DNA of 64,000 nt, from assembly GCA_902779645.1 (NCBI GenBank), contig CACZCH010000001.1, positions 175,542 to 239,541 of the forward strand, read 5' to 3'. The translations under genes and the position numbers were made by a program. Position 1 is the first letter of the stretch; every line of letters begins with the position of its first letter. Below, piece after piece: positions 23,592 through 53,959 of this stretch. Under the pieces are notes generated by a model. It searched no databases. It saw nothing but the letters and a program-made list of their open reading frames with translations, and had not been told where the DNA came from. The DNA is from an uncultured bacterium. GTDB taxonomy: Bacteria > Cyanobacteriota > Vampirovibrionia > Gastranaerophilales > Gastranaerophilaceae.

Positions 23592-23618
23592 ATATCGGCA
23601 CAAATATAAAAAACTTTA
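23592..23618 (-). promoter_or_regulatory. Sigma-28-type promoter of the 51-aa gene
   Basis: Minus strand: TAAAGTTT, 11 bp, GCCGATAT. One base from the full FliA consensus in the two boxes together, with perfect spacing. Confidence 0.85.
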
Positions 23619-49241: not shown

Positions 49242-50603
49242 ATGCTTGAAGTTAACATAATCGGAGCTGGACTTGCCGGTAGTGAAGCGGCTTTACAGCT
49301 TGCAAAAAGAGGGATAAAAGTTAAATTATATGAGATGCGCCCAAAAAAAATGACAGGAGCGCACACAGGTGAAAACTGCGCCGAGTTTGTATGCTCAAAT
49401 AGTCTTGGCTCATCGGATATTACAAACGCAAGCGGACTTTTGAAAGCAGAAATGGAGATACTTGGAGGAGAACTCATTAGGATAGCAAAAGAGAACTCTG
49501 TACCAGCGGGTAACGCTCTTGCTATATCAAGAGATGATTTTGCAAAAGCCGTAACAAAAAAAATTACGGAAAATTCTAATATTGAATTAATACGTGAAGA
49601 AATTACTAAAATTCCTGAAGGTAATGTTATAATTGCTTCAGGCCCTTTAACAAGTGACGAACTTGCAAAAAGTATACAAGAATTTACTAAAACAGAACAC
49701 CTGCACTTTTTTGATGCAATTGCACCAATTGTAGAAGTTGATTCAATCAATTTTAGCAAAGCCTTTTGGGGCTCAAGATATGATAAAGGAGAGGCTTCTT
49801 ATATCAATTGCCCTATGAACAAAGAAGAGTATGAAAGATTTTATAATATCTTGATTAATGCACCAAAAATTGAACAACACGATATTGATAAAGATGCAAA
49901 ATTCTTTGAATCTTGCTTGCCTGTTGAAGTATTAGCATCAAGAGGTGTTGATACTCTCCGATTTGGTCCTATGAAACCGGTAGGGCTTGTTGATAAGAGA
50001 ACGGGAGAAGAAAATTATGCAGTAGTTCAATTGAGACAGGATAATTCAGCAAAAACAATGTTTAACCTTGTAGGATTCCAAACAAATCTTAAATGGGGAG
50101 CTCAGAAAGAACTTGTACATTCTATTCCCGGATTAGAAAACGCAAACATTATAAGATACGGTGTTATGCACAGAAATACTTTTATTAACTCTTCTCTAGT
50201 TCTTAATCCTACATTTGAAGCCAGAGAAAGAAACGGATTGTTTTTTGCAGGCCAAATAACAGGAACGGAAGGGTATACAGAATCAATAGCCGGAGGACTG
50301 CTTGCAGGGATAAACATGGCTCGCAGAATTCAAGGTAAAGAATTATTTATCCCTCCAAAAGAAACTATGCTCGGAGCATTAGCAAACTATATAACAGATA
50401 AAGCTCATTTAGCGCATATAAGCAAGCGTGATGGCTCTTTAAGATATTTACCGCCCCAGCCGATAAATTCAAATTGGGCGATAGTTGCTCCGATGGATAT
50501 GCCTAAAAAAGAGAGAAAAAACAAGAAACTTAAAGCCGAACTGCTGTCACAAAGAGCAATAACTACCATAAAACAGCAAATAATTAATATAAAGCCGGTT
50601 TAA
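49242..50603 (+). CDS. trmFO: tRNA (uracil-54-C5) methyltransferase TrmFO
   Basis: The 453-aa FAD- and folate-dependent enzyme that makes ribothymidine at position 54 of tRNA. N-terminal FAD site VNIIGAGLAGSEAALQLAKRGI; the family motif EMRPKKMTGAHTGENCAEFVCSNSL; and the CLPVEVLASRGVDTLRFGPMKPVGL segment with a catalytic Cys. C-terminal FAD part FAGQITGTEGYTESIAGGLLAGINMAR. Present in Gram-positive bacteria and many anaerobic lineages, including cyanobacteria-related ones. Confidence 0.97.
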   Translation: MLEVNIIGAGLAGSEAALQLAKRGIKVKLYEMRPKKMTGAHTGENCAEFVCSNSLGSSDITNASGLLKAEMEILGGELIRIAKENSVPAGNALAISRDDFAKAVTKKITENSNIELIREEITKIPEGNVIIASGPLTSDELAKSIQEFTKTEHLHFFDAIAPIVEVDSINFSKAFWGSRYDKGEASYINCPMNKEEYERFYNILINAPKIEQHDIDKDAKFFESCLPVEVLASRGVDTLRFGPMKPVGLVDKRTGEENYAVVQLRQDNSAKTMFNLVGFQTNLKWGAQKELVHSIPGLENANIIRYGVMHRNTFINSSLVLNPTFEARERNGLFFAGQITGTEGYTESIAGGLLAGINMARRIQGKELFIPPKETMLGALANYITDKAHLAHISKRDGSLRYLPPQPINSNWAIVAPMDMPKKERKNKKLKAELLSQRAITTIKQQIINIKPV

Positions 50604-50637
50604 TTGTAAATTTTTGTAACAATATTATAAATAATCC

Positions 50638-50664
50638 TAAAGTTTTTAAAAAAAGTGCCGATAT
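50638..50664 (+). promoter_or_regulatory. Sigma-28-type promoter of the 42-aa gene
   Basis: TAAAGTTT, exactly 11 bp, GCCGATAT; all eight -35 bases and seven of eight -10 bases match the FliA consensus. The start of the 42-aa gene is 39 bp downstream of the -10 box. Confidence 0.9.
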
Positions 50665-50703
50665 ACATGATGTAGACAGGAATAAAACAAAAAGGAGTAT
50701 ATC

Positions 50704-50832
50704 ATGTATTCAATGTGGCCAGGTTGTTACAGTTTTATGGATGAACTTAAACTCTTTGCAGAATGGTTTAAAGAGCAGACAGAAGCTCTTGTATTAAAGA
50801 TTTATGAACTTGACAGAATGCTTCATTCTTAA
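50704..50832 (+). CDS. Small 42-aa protein under a sigma-28-type promoter
   Basis: A 42-aa gene, too short for most gene callers (MYSMWPGCYSFMDELKLFAE..., ending LKIYELDRMLHS). AAAGGAG stands 7 bp before the ATG; a near-perfect FliA promoter is upstream and a strong terminator follows 58 bp after the stop. The peptide is an amphipathic helix with two Trp and a single Cys. Its promoter and position beside flagellin suggest a late flagellar role such as a small chaperone or regulator. Function is inference. Confidence 0.75.
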   Translation: MYSMWPGCYSFMDELKLFAEWFKEQTEALVLKIYELDRMLHS

Positions 50833-50890
50833 AGTTCTGTTGAACTGGTAAGTATAGTAGATTTAATTTCTCTCTTTCTCAAAGATATTT

Positions 50891-50922
50891 AAACACCTTG
50901 TAATGATAAGGTGTTTCTTTTT
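50891..50922 (+). terminator. Intrinsic terminator after the 42-aa gene
   Basis: AAACACCTT-gtaatgat-AAGGTGTTT, a perfect 9-bp stem, followed by CTTTTTT. Confidence 0.85.
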
Positions 50923-50962
50923 TATGTGATTGCCGGAATTTTAAATCTTTCTAATATCAAAA

Positions 50963-51082: not shown

Positions 51083-52171
51083 TTATATCAAGTTCAGCGC
51101 GATACTTGGTGTTTGGTTTGCAGTTGCAAGTAATGTTGCTGAAGATTGTTGTAAAATTTGATACTTGATATAGTTTGATGATTCAGTTGCTACGTCAGCA
51201 TCCTTAATTGAAGAGTTAGCTGATACGATGTTCTCCTTTTGTACACTTATCGCATCAACAGCTGATTCAACACGGTTCATATAAGCACCGATTAATGCTG
51301 TTCTGCTTGATACGTTTTCAATTGCGTCATCAATGAATGATAAGAATTCACGAGCTGTTGCATCATCTGTGTATACAGCATCACAAATCGCTGTAATACA
51401 AGACTTGTTTTCAGATGTGCTTCTTATATCTTGCCAATCGTATTTTTCATCTTTAATTGCAGTGTATCCTTTTGATTTGTAGTCGTATTCTCTGCCTTCG
51501 TATGTGGTTTTAGTTCCTTCAATTCTTGATTCTAGAGCAGCTGTATTATTTTTATCGTCTCTTTCATACCAAGCTTTGTTAATACCTGTTTCTCCTTCGT
51601 GTTTAGAATTGCTGTTACCTGAGATCAACAATGCTGTGATTGTAGCTGCTTCAAAAATTGTGTATTTTAAGTTGATAATGTTGTTCTTACCGCTGTTGTT
51701 ACTAACTTGTAAGTTTACACCATTTTTTGATGTTGCTGCTGTACTTGTACCGTCTAACAGTTTGATACCATTAAAGTCGATAACTGTACATAAACGGTTG
51801 ATTTCTTCCATTCTTTGAAGAACTTCTGTCTTAATTGCGTTCATTGAAGATGTTCCGTAAGTACCGTTTGCTGCTTGTTCGGTCAAGTCTCTGATACGTT
51901 GAAGGTAATCACCAACAATATCAAGAACACCTTCTGCTGTGTCTAATAGTGATAAGCCCATTGTAGCATTTGCTTCCGCTACATCATAACCAGAAATTTG
52001 AGCTTCCATAATAGTTGATACAGCTGAACCTGCAGCATCGTCTTTACCTGAGTTGATTCTGTAACCTGTTGTTAATCTTTCCATTGCGGTGTTCATACCG
52101 GTAGTAGCTGAAGACAGGTTGTGTTGCGCCGTTAATGACGCAAGGTTTGTGTTGATTGTGATTGAAGCCAT
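51083..52171 (-). CDS. fliC: Flagellin (filament protein)
   Basis: A 362-aa flagellin. I start it at the ATG at 52171 (MASITINTNL), because AAAGGAAAT precedes it; an upstream in-frame start at 52222 lacks the conserved beginning. Terminal D0/D1 domains are well kept: SLTAQHNLSSATTGMNTAME, DDAAGSAVSTIMEAQISG, then LQRIRDLTEQAANGT (part of the TLR5-recognition segment), and at the C-terminus RVESAVDAISVQKENI, SRSYIKYQI-like and QQSSATLLATANQTPS. The variable middle (about 150-265) is short, and contains three cysteines in all (NRLCTV and KSCITAICDA), unusual for a flagellin. A long leader of about 130 bp precedes the gene. Confidence 0.95.
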   Translation of the reverse strand: MASITINTNLASLTAQHNLSSATTGMNTAMERLTTGYRINSGKDDAAGSAVSTIMEAQISGYDVAEANATMGLSLLDTAEGVLDIVGDYLQRIRDLTEQAANGTYGTSSMNAIKTEVLQRMEEINRLCTVIDFNGIKLLDGTSTAATSKNGVNLQVSNNSGKNNIINLKYTIFEAATITALLISGNSNSKHEGETGINKAWYERDDKNNTAALESRIEGTKTTYEGREYDYKSKGYTAIKDEKYDWQDIRSTSENKSCITAICDAVYTDDATAREFLSFIDDAIENVSSRTALIGAYMNRVESAVDAISVQKENIVSANSSIKDADVATESSNYIKYQILQQSSATLLATANQTPSIALNLI

Positions 52172-52301
52172 AATCGATTTCCTTTCTTTTTTTCTTCTTC
52201 CATGATTTACTAATGCGCCCACAATTAGCGCAATAGTATACTAATGCTGTGTAAAATAGTTTACAAAGCTTAATTAGGGGTAAATATTTTATACTTACCT
52301 G

Positions 52302-53853: not shown

Positions 53854-53924
53854 AATTTTGTATAATTAATTCAATTAATTTAAATTCAGATTGTTACAAT
53901 TTGTAAAAATTTTTACCTCTAAGC

Positions 53925-53959
53925 GCAAATTTTTCATACAAAATAACTTTATATATATG
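53925..53959 (+). promoter_or_regulatory. Recurrent AT-box motif before the 236-aa gene
   Basis: GCAAATTT (53925-53932), 11 bp, TAACTTTA, then TATATATGAAAGT. The left box differs by one base from the other copies. An inverted repeat ACTTT...AAAGT flanks the core. It ends 28 bp before the ATG. Confidence 0.55.

Follow-up and report, generated by a model that had tools for sequence, protein, structure and literature searches.

A 42-amino-acid open reading frame (ORF) in the window, the whole 64,000-nucleotide stretch of uncultured Gastranaerophilales DNA analyzed here, is preceded by a sigma-28 (FliA)-type core promoter and, at a distance of exactly 17 bp before this core, by a direct repeat of the HLR1 type. 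The proposed reading of this unit, with a probability of roughly 0.55, is a monocistronic small-protein gene that would be transcribed from the sigma-28-type core, activated by an RpaB-type regulator at the HLR1 box and translated into an adaptor. The sigma-28 and HLR1 architecture is a stronger finding than the small-protein gene itself. The features of the unit are as follows.

50603..50620, + strand: HLR1-type direct repeat ATTGTAAA-TT-TTTGTAAC, a perfect fit to WWTGTAAM-N2-WWTGTAAM; putative RpaB/OmpR-family response-regulator box
50638..50664, + strand: sigma-28 (FliA)-type core promoter TAAAGTTT-N11-GCCGATAT, from sequence and pattern counts
50638-50645, + strand: -35 element TAAAGTTT, 8/8 consensus bases
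50657-50664, + strand: -10 element GCCGATAT, 7/8 bases of GCCGATAA
50692..50697, + strand: Shine-Dalgarno AAGGAG, 6 nt before the ATG at 50704, from sequence
50704..50832, + strand: 42-aa ORF MYSMWPGCYSFMDELKLFAEWFKEQTEALVLKIYELDRMLHS, from translation and from conservation across loci and genomes
50869..50880, + strand: CU-rich 3'UTR element TCTCTCTTTCTC, two genomic copies, ≤1 mismatch in 39/51 loci
50891..50924, + strand: intrinsic terminator with a 9-bp stem, an 8-nt loop and a T run, from sequence; the stem is also in the predicted fold

The sequence-only reading had described a FliA promoter, a strong ribosome site, a 42-codon frame and a 9-bp terminator stem, and each of these was recovered on inspection: the -35 and -10 elements agree at all eight and at seven of eight bases with a spacer of 11, AAGGAG ends 6 nt from the ATG, the ORF comprises 42 residues and a stop codon, and the stem arms AAACACCTT (50891-50899) and AAGGTGTTT (50908-50916) are followed by the T run. 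The extent given for the unit, 50638-50922, leaves out the conserved HLR1-type box, which overlaps trmFO by a single base, the final one of its stop codon.

The core promoter is not an isolated match. The window contains two copies of the pattern TAAAGTTT-N10..12-GCCGATA, this one and another at 23593-23618 on the minus strand, against none in 100 dinucleotide shuffles, so that sigma-28 promoter elements at 11-nt spacing are present beyond chance. Across the whole genome, 41 places match TAAAGTTT-N11-GCCGATAA with ≤2 mismatches (8, 23 and 10 places with 0, 1 and 2 mismatches, respectively), and the promoter of the 42-aa gene is therefore one member of a set. A comparison of 51 loci, consisting of the window and 50 named loci from GTDB contigs, found a core with ≤3 mismatches before the small gene in every locus, with a spacer of 11 throughout. 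A FliA/WhiG-family sigma factor is encoded in the genome (best E-value 2.6e-68 in G000), and the promoter is a candidate for FliA-dependent transcription.

The direct repeat upstream of the core was recognized from a query with the upstream DNA, which gave 36 matches in the same genome. A mobile promoter repeat was considered as the source of these matches and set aside; when aligned on box and core, the remaining sequence differs by eye. The pattern WWTGTAAM-N2-WWTGTAAM is the reverse complement of KTTACAWW-N2-KTTACAWW, which the accessible part of PMC13421787 gives as the HLR1 consensus that cyanobacterial RpaB binds, and with either strand considered the consensus is matched perfectly in the window. 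The best box within 75 nt upstream sits 17 nt from TAAAGTTT in 51/51 loci, with 0 mismatches in 31 loci, 1 in 6, 2 in 12, 3 in 1 and 4 in 1, whereas a reversed-sequence control never gave 0 mismatches and gave 1 in 5 loci, 2 in 9 and at least 3 in 37. In the genome of the window, 40 distinct cores with ≤2 mismatches were counted, two of the 41 places being identical at contig ends, and a box at 17 nt is present with ≤1 mismatch at 22 and with ≤2 mismatches at 23 of them. Boxes at other offsets gather one helical turn away, at 7 nt (4 cases) and 27 nt (6 cases), as in longer arrays. The box is not a strict requirement, as 17 of the 40 cores lack one with ≤2 mismatches at the 17-nt distance. The composite pattern of box and core was found in 120/383 genomes, and the backwards-read control gave no copies in any of the genomes listed. 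Each of the 49 genomes of the window's genus carries 5-24 copies of the composite pattern, with 24 in the genome of the window; beyond this genus it is rare, at 0-5 copies in each genome, with the exception of g44, where it occurs often.

HLR1-like TGTAAM repeats also stand before a different motif, roughly GGCAAATTT, at C7:121405, C7:142581, C7:157687 and C4:145866 in the genome of the window and, in the window itself, at 53891-53933. The regulator is thus not tied to sigma-28 alone, and the GGCAAATTT-type motif may represent a second promoter class under the same regulator.

The genome encodes three OmpR-family (PF00486) regulators, including L100, L101 and L102, and the RpaB orthologue among them is L100, which scores 355.1 bits against the RpaB equivalog model NF045944.1 (cut-off 330). 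The two other PF00486 regulators reach 208 and 206 bits, below that cut-off. In the accessible part of PMC13421787, activation by RpaB is reported for the range -66 to -45; if transcription begins about 7 nt past the -10 element of the sigma-28-type core, as assumed here, the box lies at about -68 to -51, next to this range. An OmpR-family response regulator, with RpaB as the best candidate, would most likely activate transcription from the two half-sites of the box. The TGTAAM repeat can also suit other OmpR-family regulators, two more of which are encoded, and many upstream spacers are AT-rich, so that a site for another OmpR-family regulator or an UP-like element contacted by RNA polymerase is conceivable. 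This explanation is rather unlikely, as all specified HLR1 positions fit in 31/51 loci, the spacing to the core is fixed and a single regulator exceeds the RpaB equivalog cut-off.

Compared with the RpaB/HLR1 promoters of photosynthetic cyanobacteria, as described in the accessible parts of PMC13421787 and PMC6331805, the unit shares the 18-bp WWTGTAAM-N2-WWTGTAAM repeat, a position near the -66 to -45 activation zone and an RpaB equivalog in the genome. It differs from them in its sigma-28-type cores, its non-photosynthetic lineage, the box-core distance fixed at 17 nt and its target, which is a small protein and not a photosystem gene. In 2013, PMC3787301 (in the part available) reported homologs of RpaA, RpaB and NblS in Melainabacteria and commented that, photosynthesis being absent, these "may have another function"; such homologs are mentioned again in the available part of PMC4040986. 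No link between RpaB and sigma-28 is drawn in the accessible portions of PMC3787301, PMC5877343, PMC4040986, PMC6331805 and PMC13421787, and a search for literature joining Vampirovibrionia with a sigma factor returned none. The box and sigma-28 architecture offers, for one genus and with a list of target promoters, a testable answer on the role of RpaB without photosynthesis.

The 42-aa ORF is a real, conserved gene on comparative sequence grounds, and its family is absent from the searched libraries. The ORF starts with ATG, is intact and encodes 42-43 residues in 51/51 loci. A frameshifted or unconserved frame was looked for across relatives; instead, the frame proved intact, and purifying selection acts on it, with a mean pS of 0.69, a mean pN of 0.17 and a pN/pS of 0.24 over 1275 pairs (pS is near saturation, which makes the ratio rough). 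The short gene proposed by the sequence-only reading is thus borne out. At the N-terminus (MYxMWPGCYSF), ten of the eleven positions are invariant, though several of their codons vary. A protein query at E-values up to 1 matched 53/58 genomes of the genus and 61/97 genomes overall, and none of the listed matches below 1e-3 contains an internal stop. Conservation in other Gastranaerophilales was also found: a profile made from 50 sequences of a single genus, and so liable to miss divergent members, detected the family in 207/383 genomes and 29/52 genera of the order. The gene is single copy in nearly all genomes, and a single-sequence query gave no match in 17 genomes from other orders of the class. 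The protein has no match in Pfam, NCBIfam or PHROGs, and the best hit of a PDB search has an E-value of only 5.1. The analysis adds a small protein family with broad conservation and without a name in the libraries searched. The unit is somewhat more probably than otherwise a monocistronic gene of a new Gastranaerophilales family of soluble proteins of small size (about 37-48 aa).

AlphaFold2 predicts one helix at residues 8-41 (mean pLDDT 74, pTM 0.31). The helix is amphipathic in all three members tested, the helical moment being reached or beaten by 4, 0 and 1 of 1000 shuffles, respectively. The motif W[PA]GxY[SD]F was found in 68/68 compared sequences, of which 50 belong to the genus and 18 come from the set of 20 loci in other genera. 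The prediction for the protein is thus a single amphipathic helix that follows a WPGxYSF-type motif, a combination that fits a docking peptide or a coiled-coil adaptor. A lone helix with a pTM of 0.31 gives little information on the partner or function. In the proposed reading, the small protein would be an adaptor or regulatory peptide, in which the motif and the helix face may dock on a larger partner of the sigma-28 programme. The small size and the single promoter and terminator could also suggest a type I toxin-like or phage-derived peptide. That origin is very improbable because the helix is charged and amphipathic without a membrane-spanning run, the gene is single copy in nearly all genomes, present in many genera and under purifying selection, and PHROGs gave no match, the lone phage match being non-significant (E-value 0.7).

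The position beside flagellin, which the sequence-only reading had mentioned, turned out to be a poor clue to function. Just 6/51 loci (5/30 in a smaller set) have flagellin next to the gene or with one ORF in between. Among 383 genomes, 93 carry the gene and flagellin, 114 the gene only, 75 flagellin only and 101 neither, where flagellin is the sole flagellar marker scored, the draft genomes are incomplete and the species are not independent. A flagellin match is thus present in only 168/383 genomes and absent from 114 of the 207 gene-bearing genomes. Outside the genus, the corresponding numbers are 47, 114, 72 and 101, a slightly negative association (odds ratio 0.58, p 0.022, uncorrected for relatedness), and co-occurrence with flagellin does not argue for a flagellar role there. 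An ordinary late flagellar gene, encoding a filament or hook accessory, a chaperone or a motor regulator and for this reason under sigma-28, would agree with the sigma-28 cores before fliD (with a box) and before a flagellin (without one) and with the genus itself, in which the order sample has flagellin in 49/49 genomes and the small gene in 46. It is improbable in view of the 114 genomes with the gene and without flagellin, the odds ratio outside the genus (both from one marker) and the mostly non-flagellar neighbors. The small protein is probably not built into the flagellum as a structural component.

Class 3 (sigma-28/FliA-dependent) small genes of flagellated bacteria form a general class with a short leader and a late-gene-style monocistron. 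The 42-aa unit resembles them in core consensus and spacing, short leader and monocistronic layout, but it occurs without flagellin, has a fixed upstream direct repeat and belongs to no known family. In the genome of the window, fliD has a sigma-28 core with an HLR1 box upstream, and the second flagellin (L057) has a sigma-28 core and no box. No sigma-28 core, at up to 3 mismatches, lies directly upstream of the neighboring flagellin at 51083-52222 (minus strand).

The neighborhood of the small gene was also compared. In 31/51 loci, a gene for an AMIN/Amidase_3 protein and then a racemase-like gene follow downstream; as a clue, the conserved neighborhood of the 51 loci gave no clear functional hint. 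In many relatives, the region upstream of the small gene contains a divergently transcribed gene whose product, an unknown protein of some 600 aa, has no Pfam match. The gene, of which L115:3009-4823 (minus strand) is an example, is often present in tandem copies.

Sigma-28 itself appears to be kept without flagella. A FliA/WhiG-family sigma factor above the family cut-off is encoded in 370/383 genomes, including flagellin-less ones; therefore, a sigma-28 promoter alone does not mean "flagellar". The findings point to a role of sigma-28 beyond the flagellum in this order. The 20 loci from other genera come from 16 flagellin-less genomes and 4 with flagellin. At the flagellin-less loci, a sigma-28-type core with ≤2 mismatches (first -10 base free) was found in 13/16, 11 of these 13 cores having a spacer of 12 nt and not 11, and only weak cores at L170, L172 and L182. 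A TGTAAM-type half-box (≤1 mismatch) lies 34-36 nt upstream of the core start at 12 of the 16 loci. The 12-nt-spacer pattern is commoner than the control in many flagellin-less genomes (29 versus 0 in G105, 21 versus 2 in G113 and 15 versus 3 in G097) and barely above it in others (3 versus 2 in G143, for example).

The 3'UTR of the small gene contains the CU-rich element TCTCTCTTTCTC inside TTTCTCTCTTTCTC (50867-50880). Its two genomic copies are both in 3'UTRs of sigma-28 genes just before the terminator, and the other copy follows a 140-aa ORF (L002) without a significant Pfam family. The element is exact in 32/51 loci and has ≤1 mismatch in 39/51, against a dinucleotide-shuffle mean of 0.03 of 51. 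The exact 12-mer is present in 36/58 genomes of the genus; 29 loci opened from this list of 36 genomes (L071-L099) place it behind the small gene in 21 cases, behind a relative of the 140-aa gene in one (L079) and elsewhere in seven. Such placement would agree with a dual-function transcript whose 3'UTR, carrying the CU stretch and the terminator, is freed as a small RNA and base-pairs with purine-rich ribosome-binding sites. In E. coli, sigma-28-dependent 3'UTR small RNAs exist, and the 42-aa unit is similar to them in having a sigma-28-controlled transcript, a conserved 3'UTR tract and a terminator, whereas here the conserved ORF dominates and an RNA role is putative. The dual function is doubtful, since the transcript is not unusually stable (z -1.09), a search of Rfam up to E 1 gave a single match, on the opposite strand and well short of the gathering score, the genome has no full complement of the 12-mer, and the element is beyond 1 mismatch in 12/51 loci and was seen in none of the 20 loci of other genera. 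The leader of the adjacent flagellin was considered as a pairing partner of the CU tract and rejected, as the flagellin start region ranks 13th of 40 window genes.

A wider reading, tentative and somewhat less probable than the small-protein gene under RpaB-type control, is that RpaB, which controls photosynthesis in true cyanobacteria, has been rewired to sigma-28 in their non-photosynthetic gut relatives, acting at a fixed 17 bp from about half of the genome's sigma-28 promoters to drive a motility or surface programme. The WPGxYSF protein would then be a core target kept after flagellin loss, and its transcript might also be a regulatory RNA through the CU-rich 3'UTR.

Several minor observations concern the same regions. 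The 140-aa gene, a sigma-28 gene at L002:1588-2010 (at about 97.6 kb on contig C1 of the genome of the window), has a perfect HLR1 box and no family. In other genera, GTTGATTAGGATATG is a lead for a second 3'UTR motif (p < 0.05 in 7/20 loci), though it was picked by eye from the same sequences and the statistic is circular. GGTAAGTATA occurs at 50847-50856 (plus strand) in the 3'UTR of the 42-aa gene and at 52290-52299 (minus strand) in the leader region of the adjacent flagellin, and it recurs in the 3'UTR in several relatives.
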